DNA from: a virus
DNA length: 29,802 nucleotides
Strand: one strand, 5' to 3'
Virus record (IMG/VR): IMGVR_UViG_3300017735_000064
Location: 1-29,802 of that record
The translations under genes and the position numbers were made by a program. Below the pieces are notes generated by a model. The model did not search any database, was not told the origin of the DNA, and saw only the letters and a list, made by a program, of their open reading frames with translations. Positions 1,289 to 19,182 of the stretch are shown piece after piece; the first letter of the stretch is position 1; every line of letters begins with the position of its first letter.

Positions 1289-3755
1289 TCAAGTTGGTGA
1301 TCGCATTCTTGTTCGCGGGTGGGATGGAAACAAAGAGGTTCGTCTTCGTGACGAGTTCTATCCCACCCTATATGTGAGAAGTAATAACGGAGAGGATACA
1401 GGGTACACCACACTTGAGGGTGACACTGTTAAACCTATCCGTCCAGGCGGTATTCGTGACAGCAGAGAATTCTGCAAACGTTACGAGAACGTTGAAAACT
1501 TCACCGTATATGGTAATCAAGCGTACCTCTATCAATGGATCAGCGACAACTTCCCTGGTGAAGTCAAGTATGATCCTAGTAAGATCCGTGTGTTTACGAT
1601 CGATATTGAAACCGCAGCAGAGAATGGTTTTCCCGACATTGAGTCTGCTGATCAGGAGATCTTACTTATCACAGTCAAGGACAGTTTTACAGGGATCTAC
1701 CACGTTTGGGGTTCACGCCCCTTCCAGACCCCACAGGCTGATGTATCGTACACACATTGCGCTAACGAGCAGGAGCTCCTTCAGAGGTACCTCGCTTGGT
1801 GGACCGAGAATTATCCCGACGTAATTACAGGGTGGAATGTCAATCTGTTCGACGTTCCATACATCTGTAATCGTCTTGCTCGCATTCTTGGAGACAAGAC
1901 TACGAAACTCTTTTCACCTTGGAAACTTCTTAGTTCCCGTGAAATTTATATTCAAGGTCGTAAAAACATCTCTTATGATGTTTCGGGGATCACGGTGTTG
2001 GACTACCTGGATCTGTATAAGAAATTTACTTATACAAACCAGGAGTCCTATCGCCTAGATCATATTGCATTTGTAGAACTAGGTAGAAAAAAACTCGATC
2101 ACTCTGAGTTTGATACCTTCAAAGAGTTCTATACAAACGACTGGAAAAAGTTCGTTGAATACAACATCATTGACGTTCGTCTTGTAGACCAACTAGAAGA
2201 CAAGATGAAGCTGATGGATCTTGCATTCACTCTAGCGTATGATGCTAAGGTTAATCTTGAAGATGTGTTCTCACAGGTTCGTATGTGGGACGCAATCATT
2301 TATAACTACTTACGTAAAAGGAATATTGCAATTCCTCCCAAGCAAACGTCTGTCAAAAAAGACAAGTATGCTGGCGCTTACGTAAAGGAACCTATAGCTG
2401 GAATATATGAGTGGGTCGTAAACTTCGACCTTAACTCTCTGTATCCCCACCTCATTATGCAGTACAATATCTCACCTGAGACATTGATGGATGTTCGTCA
2501 TCCCTCTGCCACAGTTGATGGTCTTCTTAATAAGAAGATTGATATTGATGGTGAGTATTGTGTTTGTGCTAATGGCGCTCAGTATCGTAAAGACGTGCGT
2601 GGGTTTTTACCTGAACTAATGGAGAAAATCTATGATGAACGATCGATTTACAAGCGTAAGATGCTGGATGCAAAACAAGAATACGAAGCTTCTCCGACCC
2701 TGGATGTTCAAAAGAGAATTTCTCGATACAACAACTTCCAGATGGCACGTAAGATCCAACTTAACTCAGCATACGGTGCTATCGGAAACGAATACTTCCG
2801 ATACTACAAGCTGGCGAATGCTGAGGCGATTACTCTCAGCGGTCAAGTCTCGATTCGGTGGATCGAACTGAAGATTAATGAGTACCTAAATAAAACGCTT
2901 TCCACAGAAGGTGAGGACTACGTAATTGCATCTGACACTGATTCAATTTATCTTAATATGGGACCTCTTGTTACTAAATTTTTTAGTAATAAGTCTAGCA
3001 ACAAAGCAGCAATTGTTTCCATACTTGATAAGATCTGCCAAGAGAAACTGGAACCTTTTATCGAACGTTCATATCAAGAACTTGCGTCGTACGTTTCGGC
3101 ATACGATCAAAAAATGATTATGAAACGTGAGAACATTGCTGACCGTGGCATCTGGACTGCCAAGAAGCGATACATTCTCAACGTTTGGAACAGTGAGGGG
3201 GTTGCTTATAAAGAACCTAAGATGAAAATTATGGGTTTGGAAACTGCCCGTTCATCAGTCCCTCAATTCTTTCGTGATCGTCTTAAGAAAGCTTACCGAT
3301 TGATTATGTCTTCGGACAATGATACCGTCATCGAGTTTATCGATAAGTGTAAGAAAGAAACTAGGCAAGCAACTATCTCTGAGATTGCTTTCCCTCGTGG
3401 TTGTAATAACCTCGGTACGTATTCACATCCCAAAAACATTTATGAGAAGGGGTGTCCTATTCACGTACGTGGTTCTCTCTTGTACAACTACTACATTAAA
3501 AAGTACGGTATCGAAAACAAACACGCTCGCATTCAAGAGGGCGAGAAGATCAAATTCATTTACTTGAAAGAACCAAACATCCTTGGCGAGAACGTCATCT
3601 CCTTTTTCCAGGAGCTGCCCCAAGAGTTTGGGTTGGAACAGTACATTGACTTTGACAAACAATTTAACAAGTCGTTCTACGAACCTCTGCGTTCCGTGTT
3701 AGAATGCATTGGTTGGAAGCCGGAACGCTCTGGTAGTCTTTTGGAATTTTTTTAA
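1266..3755 (+). CDS. gp43: DNA polymerase, T4 gp43-like family B
   Basis: An 829-residue replicative polymerase with 3'-5' proofreading. The exonuclease site is seen in FTIDIET (D113, E115), NLFDVPYI (D196) and YNIIDVRLV (D303). Polymerase motifs follow: YAGAYV near 368, motif [11 protein letters not shown] from D388, motif [14 protein letters not shown] from 496, motif C SDTDS at 556-560, and a later AKKRY. It is somewhat shorter than T4 gp43 (898), as is usual in cyanophages. The start overlaps the upstream gene by 23 bases and the TAATG junction couples it to uvsX. All catalytic motifs are intact. Confidence 0.97.
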
Positions 3756-4768
3756 TGTCGTTTTTGAATAGCGTTATCAAGGAAATTGGTAATGAGTATG
3801 CTTCAGTTGTTAGCGACGGGGTTACTTCAGGTGACCTTGCTGGTTGGGTTGACACTGGCTCTTATATTTTCAATGCCCTTGTTAGTGGTTCGGTCTTTGG
3901 AGGTATTCCTTCAAACAAAGTCACCGCTCTTGCAGGAGAATCAAGCACTGGAAAAACTTTTTTTGCTCTTAGTATCGTTCGGTCTTTCCTTAACGCTAAT
4001 CCTACAGGTAATGTCATTTATTTTGAGTCTGAATCTGCTATCTCCAAAGATATGATGTCAGACCGTGCGATCGATACTGATCGTGTGGGACTAGTTCCTG
4101 TCGTCACTGTGCAGGAATTTCGTACACAAGCTATGAAAATTGTTAGCGAGTACGAAAAGATTAAAGAAGCTGATCGTCCTCCCCTGCTTATGGTCCTGGA
4201 TAGTCTAGGCAATCTTTCTACATCTAAGGAGATGGAAGATTCTGCAGCAGGAAAAGAGACCCGTGATATGACTAGAGCACAGGTCATCAAATCCATCTTC
4301 CGAGTGTTGACTCTTAATCTTGGTAGAGCAAACATTCCTTTGATTGTTACCAATCACACTTATGAAGTTGTTGGTGCTTATGTTCCAACAAAAGAAATGG
4401 GCGGCGGTACAGGACTTAAGTATGCAGCTTCCAACATTGTCTTCTTGTCGAAGGCGAAAGAGAAAGACGGTACTGAGGTTGTCGGTAACATTATCACCGC
4501 TACAAATAAAAAGTCTAGATTCACGAAAGAAAATAGTAAAGTGAAGACACGCCTATTTTATGACGAGCGTGGACTTGACCGTTACTTTGGATTGCTAGAA
4601 CTTGGCGATGAGTATGGAGTCTTTGAGCGAGTGGGTAATCGTTACAAGATTGGAGACAAGTCTCTTTATCCTAAACAGATCCTTGCAGAACCCGAAAAGT
4701 ATTTCACCGATGAAGTGATGCAAGCTCTGGATGAAGCAGCTGCAAAGGAGTTTAAATACGGTGAATGA
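3755..4768 (+). CDS. uvsX: UvsX RecA-like recombinase
   Basis: A 337-residue strand-exchange ATPase for recombination-dependent replication and repair. Walker A is GESSTGKT at residues 61-68 and Walker B is LLMVLDS at 144-150. A loop with [10 protein letters not shown] matches the DNA-binding region of RecA-family proteins. The start shares one base with the gp43 stop (TAATG), so the two are translationally coupled. Gene order gp43-uvsX-gp41 is conserved in cyanophages. No defect is seen. Confidence 0.95.
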
Positions 4769-7410: not shown

Positions 7411-7447
7411 AAGACCTTCTGATAAATACATCGGAGGGTCTTTTTTT
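7411..7447 (+). terminator. Terminator with a late promoter motif in its loop
   Basis: A 12-bp stem (7411-7422 with 7431-7442, two G-U pairs) closes an 8-base loop TAAATACA and is followed by seven T (7441-7447). It ends the long replication operon. The loop and last stem bases spell GATAAATA, and the next gene's ATG (7448) follows the T-run directly. Confidence 0.8.
7421..7428 (+). promoter_or_regulatory. T4-type late promoter candidate
   Basis: GATAAATA fits the cyanophage late motif NATAAATA. It lies at the loop of the terminator 7411-7447, so transcripts starting a few bases downstream would contain only the 3' arm and escape termination. It would drive the 7448-10924 cluster with almost no leader and no Shine-Dalgarno. 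Confidence 0.55.
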
Positions 7448-8590
7448 ATGGCATACAACGTCATCCCTAAAGATTATAAGGAACTCAGCGCAGCTGTGTC
7501 CCATATGAATCCGCAGTCCGCTATTGAGGCGACACGACTGTGGAATTATCTAGTGACTGAGTATGGGAAACTGCTTCCCGATCCACTTGCTTTCGCTTCT
7601 GACAGGAAGAATGATGTTAAGTATGCACGTGCATTGAAAGGACAGTTTACAGAAGCGCAATTGAAGACGAAGTTAAAGATAAGTAATCTTAAATTTACTG
7701 CAGGCGATGGTAGCAGAGGTAATCGTGGTGCATCAAACACAGGCAACTTGTTTGAGAAGCAGTTGGAGAATGGTTTAAATGATTGGATTGAGACTAATGA
7801 ATATACTAACAATCCATACAAAGCTTTTATTGAAGATCTTGTTAAGACGTATGATTTAAATGACTGTCAGTTTGTTCTTGTTTCTGAAGGTGAGTTGAAC
7901 AAGAAAAGACCATTAGTATTTTCTGGTACTAGTTGGAAAGTTGGTGATGCTACAGCAACCAATTATGACATTGGTTCTATTGTCACTGACTTGACCTTGA
8001 AAACTAAATGTAAAGGGAAAGCGGATCAGGAAATTTATCTTTCTCTAAAGAAAGGTGGGACAACAACGATGTCCAACTTAGGTATGAAAAAAATATTTCC
8101 TCAGAGTGAATTGTCTGTGGGAAAAATTACCAATCAAGTTGGATTGAAAGTTCTTGAAACGTTTGGTATAGATAATCAAAGACTTTGTAAGATATTTCAA
8201 GAAGCTCTTGCGGGTGAAGTAGTCAGTGGCGGTAACGTTACAAACCCTACGTATAATAGAGGACTACTGCAAAGTATGATCCGAGGATCTATAGGGTATG
8301 GATACCACTATACTCATTTGCAGACTGGTGGAAAGATAAAAAGCTTTCCTATGACTAAACAGAAATGTGATGATGCAACTAACATTACATCTGTCATAGT
8401 TCATTATGGAGGTAAAACTGGTACTGGTCAACGTGTTGATATTACAGTGAAGACACCAGTTATGGAGTTGAAATTTAATATTCGTGATACATCTGGTAGC
8501 AGTTTACCTTGGCCAGACAAATTGCAGTCAGCGTATAAGTTTAAAGATGAACTATTGTTCAGTACATCAGACGAAGGTTACGACGACTAA
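7448..8590 (+). CDS. Hypothetical phage protein, possible PD-(D/E)xK-type nuclease
   Basis: A 380-residue protein, first of a four-gene coupled cluster. I do not recognise a named family with certainty. The centre resembles a restriction-endonuclease-like core: a helix with E103 (NLFEKQLENGL), D181 in GSIVTDLTLK, and E195 with K201 in EIYLSLKKG, i.e. the D...ExxxxxK-type arrangement. The N-terminal 90 residues are basic; the C-terminal third is beta-rich. The start follows the terminator T-run directly and the stop overlaps the next ATG (TAATG). A nuclease role is a hypothesis; the family could equally be non-catalytic. Confidence 0.72.
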   Translation: MAYNVIPKDYKELSAAVSHMNPQSAIEATRLWNYLVTEYGKLLPDPLAFASDRKNDVKYARALKGQFTEAQLKTKLKISNLKFTAGDGSRGNRGASNTGNLFEKQLENGLNDWIETNEYTNNPYKAFIEDLVKTYDLNDCQFVLVSEGELNKKRPLVFSGTSWKVGDATATNYDIGSIVTDLTLKTKCKGKADQEIYLSLKKGGTTTMSNLGMKKIFPQSELSVGKITNQVGLKVLETFGIDNQRLCKIFQEALAGEVVSGGNVTNPTYNRGLLQSMIRGSIGYGYHYTHLQTGGKIKSFPMTKQKCDDATNITSVIVHYGGKTGTGQRVDITVKTPVMELKFNIRDTSGSSLPWPDKLQSAYKFKDELLFSTSDEGYDD

Positions 8591-9795
8591 TGGCAAATGT
8601 AAAACAGCTTAAGCACCTGGAGCATCTTGAAGATGAGATGCTGAACTACGGCGTCGATGGATGTATGGCAGCAGTATCATTTCTTGAAGAACTGTTAGCA
8701 ATGCTGGGTAAAAAGTCTAAGTCGGATGGATTTATGCAGACCAAATGGGATGGCGCTCCCTCTATCATCTGCGGAAAGAATCCTCAAAATGGTATGTTTT
8801 TCGTGGGTACTAAGTCTGTATTTGCCAAGACACCTAAAGCTTGTTACAGCGATATAGATGTGGATATGTATTACGAGGGTGACCTGGCAGAGAAACTTAA
8901 GTTCTCACTGGCATATTTTAGTAAGCTTAATATCCCTGGTATTGTACAAGGTGACTTGTTATACACCAGCAGCACACTTGATACAGAGACTGTAGATGGA
9001 GAGAAACTTTATACCTTTAGACCTAACACTATCACTTATGGCATTCCAATAGATCATCCTATTGGTAGAGCAGCAAAGGTATCGAAGATCGGTGTAGTTT
9101 TTCATACTCACTATACTGGTGATGACTTTCAGTCAATGCAAGCTCGTGCTGGCGCTCCTATCAATACCTTTGTAAAGGTGCCAGAGGTACTAGTTATTTC
9201 TAATGATACTCCTATCAACAGTGTTACCTTAAGTAGTAACGAGATTGTTAAATTTCATAATCACATTAAAAAAATTGAGAAGATGTGTGATTTATGTGGA
9301 GATTTTTTAAACCTTGTGGTTTCTAATATAGGCACTACAGGAGATAAAAAATTTCACGTTGCTTCTTACTTAAAGCAGTATTTTAATAATGAGATTCGTG
9401 AAGGTAGAGAGGTTCAAAATGTCAGAAGAGCACTTGATAATTTGATTATTTTTTATCACGAGAAGACAAAGAAAGAGTTGGCTAAGATTAAGACGCAAGC
9501 AAACCTAACTAAGAAACGTCAGCTTGTATATGAGAGTGAACAGTTCCTTGATCACAACGAAAGAAAGTTTAAAGCTATGCTGGCACTCTACAAAGAGATG
9601 CAGATAGCAAAGAAATTTGTTATAGATAAACTAGATCACCTAGAACAATTCAGAACATTCGTTCAGACTGACAACGGTTATAAGGTCACTACCCCTGAAG
9701 GATATGTTCTACATCAGAATGGTGATATGATTAAGTTGGTCAATCGAATTGAGTTTGCATACAATAACTTCACTATACAAAAGCAATGGCGGTAG
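8590..9795 (+). CDS. Putative ligase-like nucleotidyltransferase
   Basis: A 401-residue protein. The stretch MQTKWDGAPSII (K52, D54, G55) resembles motif I (KxDG) of covalent nucleotidyltransferases such as ATP-dependent DNA and RNA ligases, where the lysine is adenylated. Motif-like segments follow in order: FFVGTKSVF (about 70-78), IVQGDLLYT (118-126) and KIGVVFHTHYTG. The residue after KxDG is A rather than the usual x-R pattern, so activity is uncertain. I recall similar phage proteins annotated as a domain of unknown function (DUF6267-like). The C-terminal half is helical and charged. It is coupled at both ends: one base with the upstream gene, ten bases with the adenylyltransferase-like gene. 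Confidence 0.72.
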   Translation: MANVKQLKHLEHLEDEMLNYGVDGCMAAVSFLEELLAMLGKKSKSDGFMQTKWDGAPSIICGKNPQNGMFFVGTKSVFAKTPKACYSDIDVDMYYEGDLAEKLKFSLAYFSKLNIPGIVQGDLLYTSSTLDTETVDGEKLYTFRPNTITYGIPIDHPIGRAAKVSKIGVVFHTHYTGDDFQSMQARAGAPINTFVKVPEVLVISNDTPINSVTLSSNEIVKFHNHIKKIEKMCDLCGDFLNLVVSNIGTTGDKKFHVASYLKQYFNNEIREGREVQNVRRALDNLIIFYHEKTKKELAKIKTQANLTKKRQLVYESEQFLDHNERKFKAMLALYKEMQIAKKFVIDKLDHLEQFRTFVQTDNGYKVTTPEGYVLHQNGDMIKLVNRIEFAYNNFTIQKQWR

Positions 9796-10355
9796 ATCAT
9801 ATTTACAAGTGTTGTTACTTTACCTTCGGTAGGTTTCAACCACCCACTACAGGTCACGAAGAAAATATCAAAGGAGTTAAAAATGCTGCTGGCAGCTGCG
9901 ATTGGAGGATTTATACTTCTCGTTCTCACGATAGCAAAGGTAAAAATCCATTACGCCCAGAAAATAAAGTATCGTGGATGAAAAAAATGTTCAGGTTATA
10001 TGCCAGTAACATTACAGGTGCTAAGAAAGATGTGATTGAGTGCTTGCAAGAAATTCAAGCAGCTGGATATGATGATGCTACTCTTGTGGTTGGGTCGGAT
10101 AGAGTAGATGCTTTCAAATTCATACATAAATATAACGGGAAGGAATATTTCTTCCGTAAACTCGATGTGGTTTCCTCAGGTAACCGTGATGCAGACGGAG
10201 ATACGTTTGCCATCTCTGGTACTAAAATGCGAAGAGCAGCATTTGCTGGTGACTTTGCAACCTTTCGAGAAGGTATTCCTCGTGCCCTTAGTGACACTGA
10301 ATGCCAAAAGTTAATGAAAGAAATTGCTGACGCCTTACCATCAAACTTTAAATGA
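9786..10355 (+). CDS. Nucleotidylyltransferase, NMN-adenylyltransferase-like (HxGH superfamily)
   Basis: A 189-residue enzyme with the superfamily signatures near the N-terminus, FGRFQPPTTGH (14-24, TTGH in place of HxGH), and near the C-terminus, ISGTKMR (143-149). VVGSDRVDAF lies between, as in NadM/NadD and cytidylyltransferases. The reaction is transfer of a nucleotidyl group from NTP, possibly to nicotinamide mononucleotide; the substrate cannot be fixed from sequence. Similar genes occur in other T4-like phages such as KVP40, where NAD metabolism genes are known. It overlaps the ligase-like gene by ten bases and the next gene by four. Confidence 0.8.
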   Translation: MAVDHIYKCCYFTFGRFQPPTTGHEENIKGVKNAAGSCDWRIYTSRSHDSKGKNPLRPENKVSWMKKMFRLYASNITGAKKDVIECLQEIQAAGYDDATLVVGSDRVDAFKFIHKYNGKEYFFRKLDVVSSGNRDADGDTFAISGTKMRRAAFAGDFATFREGIPRALSDTECQKLMKEIADALPSNFK

Positions 10356-10924
10356 AAAGTTTAAACGAATTTAAAACGCTCACTGAAGCTGTACTTGAGA
10401 GCTGTGGTAAAGGCGGCAAAAACGAGGAAAGATATTGTCGCCTTTGCGGTAAGCGTGAGAAGCGATCTGTGTGTGGATACGGTTCAGCAGGATGGGACAA
10501 GTATTCCGTAACAGACGCTTCCGACTCAGAGAAAGAAGCTGCTGCAGTTGACGCTGGTATAGTGTCCGAACAATCGACTGTAGATGGAGAACCAAAAACA
10601 AAATTCGCTGGAAATTATGAAGGACCTTTGTACGCCCCTCACCCCGATCTTGCTGAAAAGCGAAGGGAACTGGGACTGGATGAAGGAGCTGCCTGGACAA
10701 AGAAGTCAGGTAAGAACAAAGAAGGAGGACTCAACGAAAAAGGACGCAAGTCTTACGAGAGAGAAAATCCTGGATCAGACCTTAAGGCACCATCAAAAAA
10801 GGTTGGAAATCCCCGTAGGGCATCCTTCTGTGCTAGAATGAAAGGTATGAGAAAGAGACAGAAATCATCCAACAACACGGGTGATGACCGTTTGTCAAAA
10901 TCTCTTAGAAAGTGGAACTGCTAG
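10352..10924 (+). CDS. DUF6321-type phage protein with a putative capsid-targeting N-terminus
   Basis: A 190-residue basic protein. It opens MKSLNEFKTLTEA, which resembles the amphipathic capsid-targeting sequences of T4 internal proteins with a gp21-type site (LTE before A13). Four cysteines (C18, C29, C32, C41, including CRLCG) could bind zinc. The C-terminal part, from about residue 112 (AAWTKKSGKNKEGGLN) to KSLRKWNC, matches the conserved phage domain I know as DUF6321. The low-complexity middle is Glu/Ala rich. The start overlaps the upstream stop (ATGA). A head-internal or packaged protein is inferred, not shown. Confidence 0.75.
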   Translation: MKSLNEFKTLTEAVLESCGKGGKNEERYCRLCGKREKRSVCGYGSAGWDKYSVTDASDSEKEAAAVDAGIVSEQSTVDGEPKTKFAGNYEGPLYAPHPDLAEKRRELGLDEGAAWTKKSGKNKEGGLNEKGRKSYERENPGSDLKAPSKKVGNPRRASFCARMKGMRKRQKSSNNTGDDRLSKSLRKWNC

Positions 10925-10925
10925 T

Positions 10926-11159
10926 ATGAAATCTTTTCGTCAATTTAGAAAATCTATCACCGAAAGATTTGAAAAAGACGTTCAGGAGGACTACAGAAAA
11001 GACCTTATATTCTCCGAAGGAGATTGGGTTCAGCACATTTCTAATGGTAAGACGGGTAAAGTGATCCGTCGTGGTCCAAACTATGTTATTGCACTGGGTG
11101 AGAACAATAAAATATTTAGATCCTGGGTCAAGGATCTAAGAGAACATTCTGTTTTATAA
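10926..11159 (+). CDS. Small protein with putative capsid-targeting N-terminus and SH3/KOW-like C-terminus
   Basis: A 77-residue protein. The start at 10926 is preferred over an in-frame ATG at 10881 because the latter lies inside the upstream gene and the former reproduces the N-terminal pattern of the neighbours: MKSFRQFRKSITE, with an ITE protease-like site at 11-13. Residues 30-70 (GDWVQHISNGKTGKVIRRG, then NYVIAL) look like a small SH3/KOW beta-barrel. The stop overlaps the late promoter for the next gene. A perfect 8-bp inverted repeat lies at 11116-11139 in the coding part, with no T-run. Function unknown. Confidence 0.72.
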   Translation: MKSFRQFRKSITERFEKDVQEDYRKDLIFSEGDWVQHISNGKTGKVIRRGPNYVIALGENNKIFRSWVKDLREHSVL

Positions 11160-11162
11160 ATA
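11155..11162 (+). promoter_or_regulatory. Late promoter TATAAATA
   Basis: An exact T4-type late promoter box, overlapping the stop codon of the 77-residue gene and 20 bases upstream of the ATG at 11182. It implies late expression of the EF-hand protein, as for virion components. Confidence 0.75.
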
Positions 11163-11181
11163 ATTAAAATTACTTAGTAAG

Positions 11182-11670
11182 ATGAAGCCTTTCAAGAAAT
11201 TCCTTGAAGAAGCGCTTGAGCACTGGAACGTTCAGCACTTTGAAGAGACATCAGAAATCGAAGTGATGCCTGAAATCAAGGCAGACTCCGATGATCCTAA
11301 AGAAGTAAAACTAAAGAAGAAGAAAGTCAAGAAGGAAAGTGTTGGTAGCGAGTACTCTCTTGAGATTGACGGCGAGGAGTATGATCTTGTCGAAGTCAAG
11401 ATGGACGGCGTTGATGACAACGGCAACACCTCTTGCTGGAAAGGTTATAAGAAGAAGGGCACCAAAAAGAAAGGTGGTAAGGAAGTCAACAACTGTGTCA
11501 AAGCAGGATTTGAACCCACTGGTGAAGAGATCAAAGAGAAGAAGCTTGATCCCGTAGGTAAAGAAGACTCTGACGTTGACAATGATGGCGACGTGGATAA
11601 GTCTGACAAGTATTTGAAGAACAGACGTTCTGCAATTGCTAAGGCAATGGGCAAAAAGAAGTCTAAATAA
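11182..11670 (+). CDS. Lysine-rich protein with EF-hand loop and putative capsid-targeting N-terminus
   Basis: A 162-residue, very charged protein. Its first residues MKPFKKFLEEA follow the T4 internal-protein capsid-targeting pattern position by position (MK, aromatic at 4, F7, L8-x-E10, then A11), with a gp21-like LEE cleavage site. Near the C-terminus DVDNDGDVDKSD (131-142) is a complete EF-hand or dockerin calcium loop (D131, D133, D135, G136, V138, D142), then a basic tail SAIAKAMGKKKSK. The middle carries lysine clusters. It has its own late promoter. Likely a late, head-associated or scaffold-core protein; no family name is certain. Confidence 0.75.
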   Translation: MKPFKKFLEEALEHWNVQHFEETSEIEVMPEIKADSDDPKEVKLKKKKVKKESVGSEYSLEIDGEEYDLVEVKMDGVDDNGNTSCWKGYKKKGTKKKGGKEVNNCVKAGFEPTGEEIKEKKLDPVGKEDSDVDNDGDVDKSDKYLKNRRSAIAKAMGKKKSK

Positions 11671-11693
11671 TAGAGCCTTATAACTTTATTAAA

Positions 11694-11894
11694 ATGCTTG
11701 CATTCCTACTCCCACTAGCATCGAAAATTATCAAAGATGCCGTTTCAAACATTCCTGAGAATGAAGAACTCGGTGAGAAAATGGTTGAGATCTGTCTTGT
11801 TATTCTTTCTAAGGCAGTTAAGTTGACCAAGACTGAGATGGATGACCAACTTCTTGAGGTTGTCACGAAAGCAATTGCTGCTCGCGAAGAGTAG
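11694..11894 (+). CDS. Small helical hypothetical protein (66 aa)
   Basis: The protein begins MLAFLLPLASKIIKDAVSNI and continues as amphipathic helices ending in AIAAREE. The hydrophobic start could be a short membrane or signal segment but lacks a typical cleavage site. It stands alone between two late promoters; a weaker TCTAAATA lies at 11662-11669. Unknown function. Length, a sensible start and the absence of a better frame support it. Confidence 0.6.
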   Translation: MLAFLLPLASKIIKDAVSNIPENEELGEKMVEICLVILSKAVKLTKTEMDDQLLEVVTKAIAAREE

Positions 11895-11906
11895 TTCTAT
11901 ACTTTT

Positions 11907-11914
11907 TATAAATA
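11907..11914 (+). promoter_or_regulatory. Late promoter TATAAATA
   Basis: Exact T4-type late box in the gap after the 66-residue gene, 30 bases upstream of the ATG at 11944. No competing -35/-10 pair is seen. Confidence 0.75.
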
Positions 11915-11943
11915 ACTCAAGACTGTAGTTTTTATCAAAACCA

Positions 11944-12534
11944 ATGGGCGTTGACGCAAACAATTGGAAACCGCAATTCGTTGAGAGAGAGGAGCAGGGT
12001 ATTATCACTGCTCTTCCTCAAGCCGACGGTACCATCAAATACTTTCAGGGCAATCCTGACATTCTAGGAACCATTGACACAGTTCGTGTCTACGAAAAAG
12101 GTAGATACAAGAAAGGTGCTAATGTTAGAGTTCAATTAGTAGACGCCAATGGTGATGACATCAATCATAACGGTGCATCTTTCCGTGTGGTTATGTCTTC
12201 TAAAGGAGTCTTGATGGATGTCGAGATGGCTATGGCAGGAAACGGCAGTGGATTCACTGGCGATATGGATGTCAAATTCGTTGTCGATAACCCTCAGGAT
12301 TGCATCGTTCCAGCACAAGCTAAGGCACTTGTTAACACAGGTGAGTGGATCGAACATATGACTGCTGCTGAGATTGATACTCAGAACGCACTGCTGCGCG
12401 AACAGCACGCACAAGGTCTCAGGAAACAGACTCACAAAACTAGAGGTATTCTTTTAGGAGTCCCTGATGAGAAGGGTAAGGAAGAATTCTCCGTGACCCG
12501 TGAAACCATTAATGGTCTTCCACCATCATCCTGA
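11944..12534 (+). CDS. Hypothetical late protein (196 aa), possible virion component
   Basis: The protein is beta-rich over residues 1-130 (for example TIDTVRVYEKGRYKKGANV and VRVQLVDANGDDINHNGASF) and helical near 140-170. It has no signal peptide or membrane segment. It lies between two TATAAATA boxes, so it is transcribed late as its own unit, like the Ig-like gene that follows; a structural role is inferred from that. I do not recognise the family. Confidence 0.7.
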   Translation: MGVDANNWKPQFVEREEQGIITALPQADGTIKYFQGNPDILGTIDTVRVYEKGRYKKGANVRVQLVDANGDDINHNGASFRVVMSSKGVLMDVEMAMAGNGSGFTGDMDVKFVVDNPQDCIVPAQAKALVNTGEWIEHMTAAEIDTQNALLREQHAQGLRKQTHKTRGILLGVPDEKGKEEFSVTRETINGLPPSS

Positions 12535-12536
12535 TT

Positions 12537-12544
12537 TATAAATA
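12537..12544 (+). promoter_or_regulatory. Late promoter TATAAATA
   Basis: Exact late box just after the stop of the previous gene and 21 bases upstream of the ATG at 12566. It fits late expression of the Ig-like virion protein. Confidence 0.75.
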
Positions 12545-12565
12545 CTTTTAAACAGATTTAGTACG

Positions 12566-13144
12566 ATGTCCCTCTACAAAGCTGAAGACAGCAATGCAGC
12601 AAAAACTGCGGTAGAAGCAACTCTGGTTGCTGATACTAGTGGTGCTACTGTTGTGTTTATCGATGCCACTGAAGCAGCACTTGCCGCTAATCGTAATCGC
12701 GGTTTGGTTTCTCCTGGTTGGTGGTCGTATCAGACTTATACAGACGCTGCTGGAAACACACGTCACAAGTCAGAGTGCTTGGTGAATATCCAAGACCCTG
12801 AGGCTAACGCTTCGGAGACTCAGGCAGATGATTCAATCGCTGCTGACGTTGCTGCAGCAATTGCTATCAGTTCACAACCTGCTGACGCTGCTGTAGCTGT
12901 GGGCGCTGCTATGTCTCTCGCAGTCACCGCTACTGGTACACCTCCTGGTGATGCTTCACTCCTCACCTATCAGTGGCAGAAGAAGTCTGGCAATCGTTTC
13001 GCTAACGTTGCTGGTGCAACTGCTGCAACGTATACTGTTGGAACCTATGCAGCAACCAATGCTGGCACATACCGTGTGAAGATTAACTCTACTAACGGTG
13101 CTCCTGAATTGGTTTCTGACACAGCTGCTATCACCACTGCGTAA
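12566..13144 (+). CDS. Ig-like domain virion protein
   Basis: A 192-residue protein. The N-terminal part contains SPGWWSYQTYTD and TRHKSECLV (about 49-73), a segment I associate with cyanophage virion proteins. The C-terminal 90 residues form an Ig-like domain: core tryptophan in TYQWQKK (W137) and the terminal strand NAGTYRVKI (165-173), with Ala/Thr-rich strands typical of phage Ig modules. Such domains decorate T4-like capsids (Hoc) and tails and bind carbohydrates weakly. A late promoter lies directly upstream. Likely a decoration or adhesion protein; capsid or tail location is open. Confidence 0.75.
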   Translation: MSLYKAEDSNAAKTAVEATLVADTSGATVVFIDATEAALAANRNRGLVSPGWWSYQTYTDAAGNTRHKSECLVNIQDPEANASETQADDSIAADVAAAIAISSQPADAAVAVGAAMSLAVTATGTPPGDASLLTYQWQKKSGNRFANVAGATAATYTVGTYAATNAGTYRVKINSTNGAPELVSDTAAITTA

Positions 13145-13154
13145 TGGTTAGAGA

Positions 13155-13514
13155 ATGAGATTTGACTATTTAAATGATGAAAACTTTCTTCTCTTTGCCT
13201 CAAAAAACTACAACAATCCTCAAGGAATAACTTACGAGGACTTCCTTGAGGATTTAAAACGTTTTAAATATATCAAGAGATTGTTTAAACGTTATGAGAA
13301 GACAGGTGAACTAAAGGTTCATCTCATTCTTAATCATATTATTGTTATCTACAATATTTTTGGTGAAGCTTCTACTCTTATGCTATTCCATAAGATAGAC
13401 AAGTCTAATTGGCAAATACTAAAGTCTTTTCTTAAGTACATAAATCAATTGCCTGCAGAATTAGACGATCCTTATATTGATACATATACTTTAGAGGAAT
13501 TGGATCAACTATGA
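13155..13514 (+). CDS. Conserved-looking hypothetical protein (119 aa)
   Basis: An acidic-helical protein starting MRFDYLNDENFLLFASKNY and ending in a charged, Leu-rich tail (YTLEELDQL). It has alternating aromatic and charged segments (FLEDLKRFKYIKRLFKRY), no membrane segment and no catalytic motif. Proteins of this kind are familiar from T4-like cyanophages without assigned function. The stop overlaps the next start by four bases (ATGA). Confidence 0.72.
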   Translation: MRFDYLNDENFLLFASKNYNNPQGITYEDFLEDLKRFKYIKRLFKRYEKTGELKVHLILNHIIVIYNIFGEASTLMLFHKIDKSNWQILKSFLKYINQLPAELDDPYIDTYTLEELDQL

Positions 13515-14176
13515 ACGAGGATGCTCCCGTAAATTCAGCTGGTGACGGCAGTAGAGTTGCATTGCCTCCTGCTCACGTCATTGTTGGAAAACGTTCACGT
13601 ACTAAATACAAAAAGAATAACGCTCGCTATGATGGGCGTACTAAAGCAGGTCGTAAACTCGTCTCTCGCGTTTTACTAAATCGAAAAGGAAAAATGTCTG
13701 AAGAACTGAAGAAAATTACTGAAGCTTCTAGCGAAACTGAAAGAGCTCAAAAGCAAATTCAGCAAGGCAAGAAACTTGGTCGTGCTAAGGATCTCCAAAA
13801 GAAGAGAGACGAAGCTAAGAGCAAGATGCAATCTAAAACCAAAGAGATGGACACCCTGATGAAGGCACGTCTTTCTGACTTTAAAAAGAAAGCATCCGAT
13901 CAAACTAAGAAGTTTAAAAAAGAAGAATTTGTTATGGAAAATGATGTACTAGCAACAGCAACTCAACTTGCTGCTGGCGAAATTGGAGACACCCAAGGAT
14001 TTGCTGACGTTCGAGTTGGTGATAATTCTATTAAGATGGATCAGTATTCTGCTAAGCGTGCAGTTGCTGTTCATCAGGCATTGGATCCCGCTAATCAAAT
14101 TAGATTTCAGCAAATGCTGAACCAATCTCCTGAAACATATCTTGCAGCTATTGATTTTGCCGTCCGACAAAACTAA
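13511..14176 (+). CDS. Coiled-coil hypothetical protein (221 aa)
   Basis: The N-terminal 40 residues are low in complexity and basic (DAPVNSAGDGSRVALPP, then KRSRTKYKKN). Residues about 60-140 form a long Lys/Glu/Gln-rich coiled coil, and the C-terminal 75 residues are a compact helical part (AKRAVAVHQALDPANQIRF). The composition is like prohead core or scaffold proteins, but no family is recognised. It is coupled to the upstream gene by ATGA. Confidence 0.7.
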   Translation: MNEDAPVNSAGDGSRVALPPAHVIVGKRSRTKYKKNNARYDGRTKAGRKLVSRVLLNRKGKMSEELKKITEASSETERAQKQIQQGKKLGRAKDLQKKRDEAKSKMQSKTKEMDTLMKARLSDFKKKASDQTKKFKKEEFVMENDVLATATQLAAGEIGDTQGFADVRVGDNSIKMDQYSAKRAVAVHQALDPANQIRFQQMLNQSPETYLAAIDFAVRQN

Positions 14177-17880: not shown

Positions 17881-19021
17881 AGTAGAAGGAATGACCGTTT
17901 TTAATCAAAATGCTGTCGATTATACTTCGCAACCAATGTTCTTTGGACGCCCACTTGGTGTTCAAAGATATGATACTCAAAAGTATCCTGTGTTTGAAAA
18001 ACTTACTCAGACACAGCTCAGTTATTTCTGGAGACCCGAGGAAGTCTCTCTCCAGAAAGATAGATCTGACTATCAGACACTCAATGATGTACAAAAGCAC
18101 ATCTTTACCTCCAATCTTAAGTATCAGATCCTTTTGGATTCTGTACAAGGGCGTGGTCCTGGGATGGCTTTTGGTCCTTATTGTAGCTTACCCGAACTTG
18201 AGTCAGCAATGACCGTGTGGGGTATGATGGAGATGATTCATAGTCGCTCCTACACCTACATCATTAAGAATGTCTATAGTGATCCTGCTGAGGTACTTGA
18301 CCACATCACAAATGACGCTAGAATCATAGAGAGAGCAAAGTCTGTCACTGCAGCTTATGATGACTTCATCAATGCGGCGCAGGAGTATGGTACAGGCAAC
18401 CTTTGGAGAGATGATTTCAAAGATTCTCCCACTTCGCAGTGGACTCTCCGCGATCTTAAACGTAAACTCTATCGTGCAGTTATCAATGTCAACATCTTGG
18501 AAGGGATTAGATTCTATGTCTCGTTTGCGTGCTCTTTCGCATTTGCTGAACTCAAACTTATGGAAGGATCAGCTAAAATTATCTCTTTCATCGCCAGAGA
18601 CGAAAACCAGCATCTTGTCCTCACTCAAAACATTATCAAAAAGTGGCAGCAAGGGGACGACCCTGAGATGGTAGAGATTGCTAAAGAAGAAGAGGAGTAT
18701 ACTCTTTCTTGCTTTAAAAAATGTGTTGATGAGGAGAAAGAATGGGCAAAGTATCTGTTCAAAGATGGATCGATGCTAGGTCTGAATGACCGTCTTCTTG
18801 CTCAGTATGTTGAGTGGATTGCCAATCGTCGTATGAAGTCGATTGGTATCAAACCTGTTTATGATGTTCCTGCTAGCAACAATCCTCTGCCCTGGACAGA
18901 GCATTGGATCTCTTCTAAGGGTATGCAGGTGGCACCACAGGAGACAGAGGTTGAGTCTTATCTTATCGGTGGCATCAAACAAGATGTCAAAGCTGATACT
19001 TTTGCTGGATTTTCTCTGTAA
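17861..19021 (+). CDS. nrdB: Ribonucleotide reductase class Ia, small subunit NrdB
   Basis: A 386-residue radical-bearing subunit, close in length to T4 NrdB (388). The di-iron and tyrosyl-radical site is visible: PELESAMTVWG, EMIHSRSYTYI (ligands and radical Tyr), FACSFAFAELKLM, and ARDENQHL (Glu and His ligands). I prefer the GTG at 17861, with GGAGA seven bases upstream; an ATG at 17891 would remove ten residues and its AGAAGGA is too close. The GTG start lies inside nrdA and the stop overlaps the next ATG (TAATG). Confidence 0.93.
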   Translation: MTVAPSKVEGMTVFNQNAVDYTSQPMFFGRPLGVQRYDTQKYPVFEKLTQTQLSYFWRPEEVSLQKDRSDYQTLNDVQKHIFTSNLKYQILLDSVQGRGPGMAFGPYCSLPELESAMTVWGMMEMIHSRSYTYIIKNVYSDPAEVLDHITNDARIIERAKSVTAAYDDFINAAQEYGTGNLWRDDFKDSPTSQWTLRDLKRKLYRAVINVNILEGIRFYVSFACSFAFAELKLMEGSAKIISFIARDENQHLVLTQNIIKKWQQGDDPEMVEIAKEEEEYTLSCFKKCVDEEKEWAKYLFKDGSMLGLNDRLLAQYVEWIANRRMKSIGIKPVYDVPASNNPLPWTEHWISSKGMQVAPQETEVESYLIGGIKQDVKADTFAGFSL

Positions 19022-19182
19022 TGCCTTATTGGAAACGCAGAATGTTGTTAGACAAAAGGTTCCCTCTCACTGAGGAAGAGGAAACTCTTCTTAAGAAGGG
19101 ACCTAAGTCCTTAGCGCAAGCTTGGCGGTTGTCTGCATTGAAGTATCGTTATCTACGGCAACCAAATGGAAAAGGAGATTGA
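19021..19182 (+). CDS. Small basic hypothetical protein (53 aa)
   Basis: The ATG shares a base with the nrdB stop (TAATG). The protein MPYWKRRMLLDKRFPLTEEE, followed by KGPKSLAQAWRLSALKYRYL, is basic and helical, with alternating Arg/Lys and Leu. The next gene starts 17 bases before its stop. Gene coupling at both ends is the main support. Possible small accessory protein of the RNR operon; function unknown. Confidence 0.65.
   Translation: MPYWKRRMLLDKRFPLTEEEETLLKKGPKSLAQAWRLSALKYRYLRQPNGKGD

Follow-up and report, generated by a model that had tools for sequence, protein, structure and literature searches.

Three adjacent genes of a T4-like cyanophage probably encode internal head proteins with capsid-targeting leaders

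Three leader genes in a cyanophage fragment

The IMG/VR record IMGVR_UViG_3300017735_000064, analyzed here over its whole length of 29,802 nucleotides (the window), comes from a T4-like cyanophage, of which it represents a 29.8 kb fragment. Its closest relatives at the DNA level are Synechococcus phages; S-CAM1 is classified under Kyanoviridae. We describe three adjacent open reading frames (ORFs) on the forward strand whose products begin with a short leader resembling that of the T4 internal head proteins: protein 1 (10352-10924, 190 aa, N-terminus MKSLNEFKTLTEA), protein 2 (10926-11159, 77 aa, N-terminus MKSFRQFRKSITE), and protein 3 (11182-11670, 162 aa, N-terminus MKPFKKFLEEA). An earlier note on this DNA had reported these three ORFs, and both its N-termini and its coordinates proved exact. 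The start of protein 1 overlaps the stop of an NMNAT-like gene, and a single base separates proteins 1 and 2. The frame of protein 2 also has an upstream GTG at 10881; all 12 distinct sequences of this protein, which were found by their MKSF start, run from the ATG at 10926.

The three ORFs are located in a gene block (7448-14176) between mazG (6137) and the gp61 primase gene (14585), in the replication region. The names mazG and gp61 primase were assigned in the window because annotated relatives have the block between these two genes. The corresponding block lies likewise between mazG and gp61 in S-CAM1, Syn9, P-SSM2, and S-SM1; for ACG-2014j and S-PM2 the compared stretch runs from mazG and stops short of the primase.

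In the T4 genome (NC_000866), IPIII begins MKTYQEFIAEA, the leader form given in the earlier note, and IPI begins MKTFKEFTSTTTPVSTITEA. ORF 65416-65718, which we take to be IPII, also begins MKTYQEFIAEA. The leaders of the window comprise MKSLNEFKTLTE in protein 1 (10352..10387, with a possible cut after E12 and a VLE following at residues 14-16), MKSFRQFRKSITE in protein 2 (10926..10964), and MKPFKKFLEE in protein 3 (11182..11211). All three have K2, an aromatic or large hydrophobic residue at position 4 (L4 in protein 1), F7, and an (L/I)-x-E at the leader end. Strict identity to the 11 residues MKTYQEFIAEA is low (four in protein 1, three in protein 2, and five in protein 3), and the likeness is one of residue class at positions 2, 4, and 7, and in protein 3 also at 8 and 10. 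The position-by-position match formerly claimed for protein 3 holds in residue class at these five positions. In T4 IPIII, residues 4 and 7 are described as the targeting determinants and residues 8 and 10 as the processing determinants, and gp21 is described to cut after L/I-X-E, releasing propeptides of 10-19 residues (PMC9026906).

The window proteins share with T4 IPI, IPII, and IPIII and their capsid-targeting sequence (CTS) the N-terminal MK, the aromatic residue or leucine at position 4, F7, the terminal (L/I)-x-E, and a predicted propeptide of 10-19 residues, as well as unrelated bodies behind the leader and a presumably gp21-encoding lineage. They differ in their hosts, in the position of the putative cut site in protein 2 (residues 11-13) and its lack of conservation in protein 1, and in the kinds of protein behind the leader, which here are modular and in relatives include enzymes. 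No body similarity to IPI-III was seen in comparisons made via Pfam and PHROGs only.

No gp21 gene was found in the window, which is a fragment. Relative G013 has all three genes in tandem together with gp21 and gp23. Among contigs with a leader match, 12 chosen ones (31-184 kb) were searched for a gp21-type protease (Peptidase_S77), which was identified in six; the other six may be fragments. As to the comparison with gp21 sites in other head proteins, suggested earlier as a check, a like motif is present at the expected cut of gp23 in T4 (SFLTE/A), S-SCSM1 (SFLAE/A), S-CREM2 (GLLTE/A), and G013 (SMLNE/A), the cut places being inferred from the motif.

Conserved positions and their chance expectation

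F4, F7, I11, and E13 do not vary among the 12 distinct sequences of protein 2 (that of the window among them), while positions 9, 10, and 12 change class. The codons of the invariant residues vary synonymously (TTT/TTC, ATT/ATC/ATA, and GAA/GAG). Since K2, S3, Q6, R8, and F15 are invariant as well, the argument for a protease site rests on the contrast with positions 9, 10, and 12. In protein 3, [LI]xE is kept in all five close distinct sequences (window's included), in one of them displaced by a residue. The closest relatives of protein 1 keep MK-x-L with F or I at position 7 and lack LTE; some have (V/I)LE a few residues downstream, and one (L180) has neither LTE nor (V/I)LE. The DUF6321 domain forming the C-terminus of protein 1 carries other leaders in relatives, for example MKTYTEFIAEA, MKTFKQYITEA, MKTFKQFIKEA, and MKSFKELRSDIRE, the first of which is identical to T4 IPIII in 10 of 11 residues.

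The (L/I)xE site that the earlier note saw in all three proteins is present in each, although [LI]xE alone is common by chance and the LTE of protein 1 is not kept in relatives. Among 2333 called ORFs from 11 sources, the window included, [LI]xE ends at residues 10-19 in 277 (12%) and a MK.[FYL]..[FYL] start is found in 31 (1.3%), while 18 have both features against ~4 predicted under independence. LxE alone is therefore weak evidence, and the combination is not. No run of three adjacent ORFs with both features occurred among the 2333, the window triplet itself being uncounted as the caller omitted protein 2. A chance similarity at three start regions could draw on the frequency of [LI]xE near N-termini and on a strict identity to the T4 leader of just three to five residues of 11. 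It is rejected as very improbable in view of the conserved leader positions in relatives, the excess of ORFs combining both features, and the recurrence of the leader in a pattern scan whose control matches mostly fit the leader too (see below). The leaders are not a product of chance.

The same leader on unrelated proteins

A search of related phages for the leader pattern, proposed in the earlier note, recovered the same leader on many unrelated bodies. The pattern MK-x-F-x-x-F-[LIMF]-x-E-A, written as degenerate DNA, gave at least 124 matches. Of the 124 listed, 118 open a frame of at least 45 residues, and all 118 have an in-frame stop within 30 codons upstream; the six with frames below 45 residues were dropped from the counts. 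The bodies of these 118 leader ORFs fall, among the matches listed, into at least 35 clusters, the largest being the NMNAT family with at least 58 members. When 20 chosen leader proteins of the 118 listed were run against Pfam, six were named (GNAT acetyltransferase, lytic transglycosylase (DPBB), DUF192, DUF6267, DUF6321, and cytidylyltransferase), two of the 20 had weak matches only, and 12 had none at E up to 0.05. A control pattern required F at positions 5 and 7. In 110 of the 120 matches listed for it, position 4 is F as well and the leader pattern fits; among the remaining 10 listed, four have L4, and three of these are in long frames reading as leaders. DNA patterns within single phage genomes were not decisive alone.

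Two candidate identifications of leader proteins, by eye ADP-ribosyl- or phosphotransferases, were rejected. L245 gave no useful match (one at E 0.81), and the match of L212:3736-4152 to RNA 2'-phosphotransferase was weak (E 0.096) and is not claimed. L212 has two adjacent leader genes, 3736-4152, weakly RNA 2'-phosphotransferase-like, and 4149-4532, which encodes a GNAT acetyltransferase. P-SSM2 has two further leader genes outside the block, 102276-102536 and 171744-173465, beginning MKSFKQFLEEA and MKSLSQFIIET.

Leader proteins in cyanophage virions

Virion evidence for leader proteins comes only from the relatives S-CREM2, S-SCSM1, S-SZBM1, and S-SM1. In the published virion proteome of S-CREM2 (PMC10665884, Table 3), leader-like N-termini are found in six of 50 virion-listed proteins as opposed to one of 174 other called ORFs (Fisher, p = 0.0006); two of the 52 listed proteins are absent from the ORF calls and were left out, and the leader of ORF12 lies too far in to enter this count. 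The four listed enzymes other than endolysins (ORF6, ORF12, ORF14, and ORF154) all have a leader, while the two endolysins have none. The four enzymes with leaders are published as SAM hydrolase, APH/ChoK-like kinase, cytidylyltransferase (ORF154), and 'CRISPR-Cas9 nuclease' (PMC10665884). The leaders read MKDFDSFLEE, MKRFDAFLTEE (with GTG as start codon), MKNFSSFLTEA, and FASFMAEA, the last of these at residues 19-26. The second gene downstream of the kinase in S-CRM01, S-N03, MA01, and S-B68, which is like ORF12 in place and start, has the leader core in all four phages (LDSFIKEA, FSNFLKEA, FSSFLKEA, and FSSFIAEA). The kinases themselves begin MISFDQFLSEK in S-CRM01 and MKRLGRLLAEN in S-B68, and have no more than a partial leader in S-N03 and MA01 (MKSLKLFEG and MKSLKIFEA).

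The NMNAT of S-SCSM1 has a leader and is virion-tagged (PMC9602691), that of S-SZBM1 is virion-listed and begins MRFRQFIIEA (PMC9146016, Table 1), and that of S-SM1, which begins MKKFSAFLNEA, was detected in the virion (PMC3037559). Within ORFs 84-98 of S-SCSM1, the mazG-primase block, ORFs 89, 90, 91, 92, 93, 95, and 97 are virion-tagged, most of them leaderless.

Late-promoter boxes and the case for capsid targeting

The late promoter of cyanophages is given as NATAAATA (PMC2984593). A late-promoter box ends 15-35 nt before four of the 45 called window genes, all of them in the block (7448, 11182, 11944, and 12566). The box TATAAATA at 11155..11162 (forward strand) ends 19 nt ahead of the protein 3 gene, and NATAAATA at 7421..7428 (forward strand) ends 19 nt before ORF 7448; judging from the close spacing, the latter could drive the whole run 7448-11159 as an operon, including proteins 1 and 2. 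TATAAATA occurs four times in the window against 1.02 expected, a count reached in two of 100 shuffles. Across 13 sources the box precedes 10 of 33 leader ORFs and 197 of 2713 others (p = 9e-5), or 9 of 29 and 198 of 2717 when leaders are defined by a fixed rule (p = 2e-4), p values that are generous since related phages are not independent. Hand-listed leader ORFs absent from the ORF calls were left out, one of 24 in a count over fewer sources and one of 34 in the 13-source count.

We conclude that the three proteins are probably internal head proteins of a T4-like cyanophage bearing T4-type capsid-targeting propeptides. Capsid targeting, as proposed in the earlier note, is supported because the leader residues are conserved, the leader stands on unrelated bodies, leader proteins are enriched in the S-CREM2 virion, and late-promoter boxes mark the block. 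In the proposed mechanism, F4 (or L4) and F7 of a propeptide of 10-13 residues would bind the prohead core, the leader protein would be enclosed during shell assembly, and gp21 would cut after (L/I)-x-E, so that the mature head retains the body along with the DNA. The bodies themselves are swappable modules, and the cargo may be delivered into the host. Packaging of the leader proteins has good, though indirect, support. Judged from the leader motifs, proteins 2 and 3 are likely to be cleaved by gp21, while cleavage of protein 1 is doubtful.

Several observations weigh against this conclusion. Relatives of protein 1 do not keep its LTE site and often have I at position 7, and short zinc-ribbon relatives (MKKLSEFKCPPAKKK) have no [LI]xE in these first residues except an LSE at 4-6. 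In S-SCSM1 no enrichment was found, with leaders in one of 48 virion-tagged proteins and one of 240 others (p = 0.31; the record tags 48 virion proteins, all of which were used, and the paper states 45, PMC9602691), and its leader protein ORF30 is not virion-tagged. Leader proteins 191 and 192 of S-SZBM1 are not in its list of 30 virion proteins, and one of the six S-CREM2 matches is a baseplate protein, probably a chance match. The virion proteins S-SCSM1 ORF29 and ORF92 and S-CREM2 ORF137 have a DUF6321 domain or an EF-hand-like loop and are leaderless; such bodies can therefore enter otherwise, and the leader is not the sole route. As to the promoters, NATAAATA itself shows no enrichment in the window, with 7 occurrences for 5.4 expected, protein 3 is the only one of the three leader genes with a box of its own, and none of the six leader genes of relatives G014 and G017 has one.

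The N-termini could instead be an ordinary conserved helix that serves another partner, such as tail, neck, or replication proteins, and resembles the T4 leader by convergence. The block is located in the replication region, some virion proteins of the same families are leaderless, and in protein 2 the residues K2, S3, Q6, R8, and F15 are as invariant as F4, F7, I11, and E13. We regard such a helix as unlikely, given that fixed I11 and E13 beside free positions 9, 10, and 12 fit a protease site, that T4 internal proteins have the same form, and that late-promoter boxes mark the block.

Protein bodies and possible roles

The body of protein 1 (10388..10924) consists of a zinc-ribbon-like YCRLCGKREKRSVCGYG, a GNYEGPLYAPH segment, and a C-terminal DUF6321 domain (residues 120-188; PF19846, E 2.7e-22), which bears out its earlier assignment to the DUF6321 type. 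A predicted structure of DUF6321 from 12 rows was too weak for a fold search (mean predicted local distance difference test score, pLDDT, 67; predicted template modelling score, pTM, 0.34). Other DUF6321 proteins share this C-terminal domain and differ at the N-terminus: the long forms (Syn9, P-SSM2, S-SCSM1, and S-SM1) are leaderless, while the short ones read begin MK-x-[FYL] or MRDY. The body of protein 3 (11212..11670; phrog_4359, E 5e-42) has an EVMPEI segment, a CWKGYKKKGTKKKGGKEVNNC module, and an EF-hand-like loop, DSDVDNDGDVDKSD. The EF-hand assigned to it in the earlier note has no match in Pfam and is readable as this loop. Protein 3-like modules can be read by eye in S-SCSM1 ORF29 and ORF92 and S-CREM2 ORF160, all virion-tagged or virion-listed.

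That only the leader is shared, as the note had stated, is correct for these three proteins; in relatives, modules are exchanged between such proteins, and segments of protein 1 recur in other leader proteins. The leader proteins L145:4615-5043 and L138:4303-4632 join an EVMP/EIMP segment as in protein 3 with a GNYQGPLYA segment as in protein 1, a combination that suggests module shuffling. In NMNATs (e.g., L239:6673-8097) and in the Cas9-like protein, the leader is followed by a module like A-x-x-LGL-x-x-DGHG-x-[WY]-x-D-x-x-G-x-x-VA-x-T, and the S-CREM2 kinase has a related form of it (ORF12 and ORF14 (L017) compared). It is as if leader and LGL/DGHG module were exchanged together.

The body of protein 2 (10965..11159) is an SH3/KOW-like domain. 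This assignment is marginal in Pfam (E 0.0047, under its cut-off), while the protein matches residues 198-271 of the cyanophage cytidylyltransferase profile phrog_395 (E 9e-14). A sequence search of the PDB gave nothing usable, the best match being a viral spike fragment (E 0.033). The NMNAT of Syn9, P-SSM2, S-SCSM1, S-SM1, and S-CREM2 starts with the leader and ends with the KOW domain. Both are absent from the NMNAT of the window, S-CAM1, and ACG-2014j, where the KOW ORF starts MK-[SD]-F. The NMNAT/cytidylyltransferases reported in virions (S-SM1 T4-GC190, S-SCSM1 ORF91, S-SZBM1_140, and S-CREM2 ORF154; PMC3037559, PMC9602691, PMC9146016, PMC10665884) carry the leader and, as their C-terminal domain, the KOW body found in protein 2; in the window, NMNAT and KOW are encoded by different genes, of which the KOW gene alone bears the leader. 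That the tag moves with the detached KOW domain points to a binding of KOW to NMNAT by which the enzyme would be taken into the head, and protein 2 probably also brings the leaderless NMNAT (9786-10355) there.

From these observations we tentatively propose, as a matter close to evenly balanced, that in marine cyanobacterial T4-like phages one T4-type leader serves as a general label for swappable cargo delivered with the DNA (NMNAT, kinase, SAM hydrolase, Cas9-like nuclease, acetyltransferase, and small modular proteins), and that in the lineage of the window the leader moved from NMNAT to the detached KOW domain, which would act as an adaptor carrying the leaderless NMNAT into the head. The papers on the virion proteomes did not decide if NMNAT, kinase, and SAM hydrolase are cargo or carried-over contamination (PMC10665884, PMC9602691). 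A conserved leader on those enzymes, of a kind that loads heads in T4, offers a mechanism for their presence in virions, and would give a rule by which candidate injected proteins can be picked out from the genome sequence alone. Reviewers of T4 have already suggested that the CTS may have served T4-like phages in evolution as a way of packaging various proteins (PMC9026906), so the packaging principle itself has a precedent. In the literature searched, which left most subscription papers outside, no account of its extension to cyanophages and to enzymes was found; the single paper in which 'capsid targeting' occurs together with 'cyanophage' has the latter word in a reference title only.

The leader might also package these proteins for head building or DNA condensation, like the T4 core proteins, instead of as host effectors. 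Proteins 1 and 2 are basic (isoelectric points, pI, of 9.4 and 9.8; 10.4 for the DUF6321 part), T4 internal proteins are said to be basic and IPIII to affect head assembly (PMC9026906), and the virion-listed S-CREM2 ORF160 and T4 ORF 18966-19130 resemble part of gp23. On the other hand, leaders also stand on enzymes for which a role in the head is not apparent (NMNAT, GNAT, and the S-CREM2 proteins named kinase and SAM hydrolase), and protein 3 is not basic (pI 6.2). We consider a purely structural role somewhat improbable, though far from negligible.

Other genes of the block

The remaining genes of the block described here are all on the forward strand. The first, 7448..8590, matches phrog_8438 (E 8.5e-100) and is the one preceded by the NATAAATA box. 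It is followed by a DUF6267 protein (8590..9795; PF19782, E 1.2e-123), leaderless in the window and of a family bearing the leader in some other phages (e.g., L197), and by the NMNAT/cytidylyltransferase domain protein without leader and KOW domain (9786..10355; PF01467, phrog_3041). Downstream of protein 3, 11944..12534 has TATAAATA at 11907-11914, and its product matched nothing in Pfam or PHROGs at E values up to 0.01. The next gene, 12566..13144, has TATAAATA at 12537-12544 and encodes an Ig-like head protein (phrog_613 head protein, E 1.5e-62); S-SZBM1_136, in a like position, appears in the S-SZBM1 virion list.

At the end of the block, 13511..14176 encodes a protein whose N-terminus MNEDAPVNSAGDGS resembles by eye the stretch LNEAAPINSVGADG of G013 gp23. 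A similar likeness by eye is found between the virion-listed S-CREM2 ORF160 (GFTGAAAPEGPVAGYDPLM) and the phage's own gp23 (GFTGAAAPGGPNAGFDPVM), and T4 ORF 18966-19130 reads by eye as a leader plus a gp23-like stretch. This T4 ORF presumably adjoins gene 61. Taken together, these proteins appear to be a family that mimics the N-arm of gp23 and is encoded near gp61.

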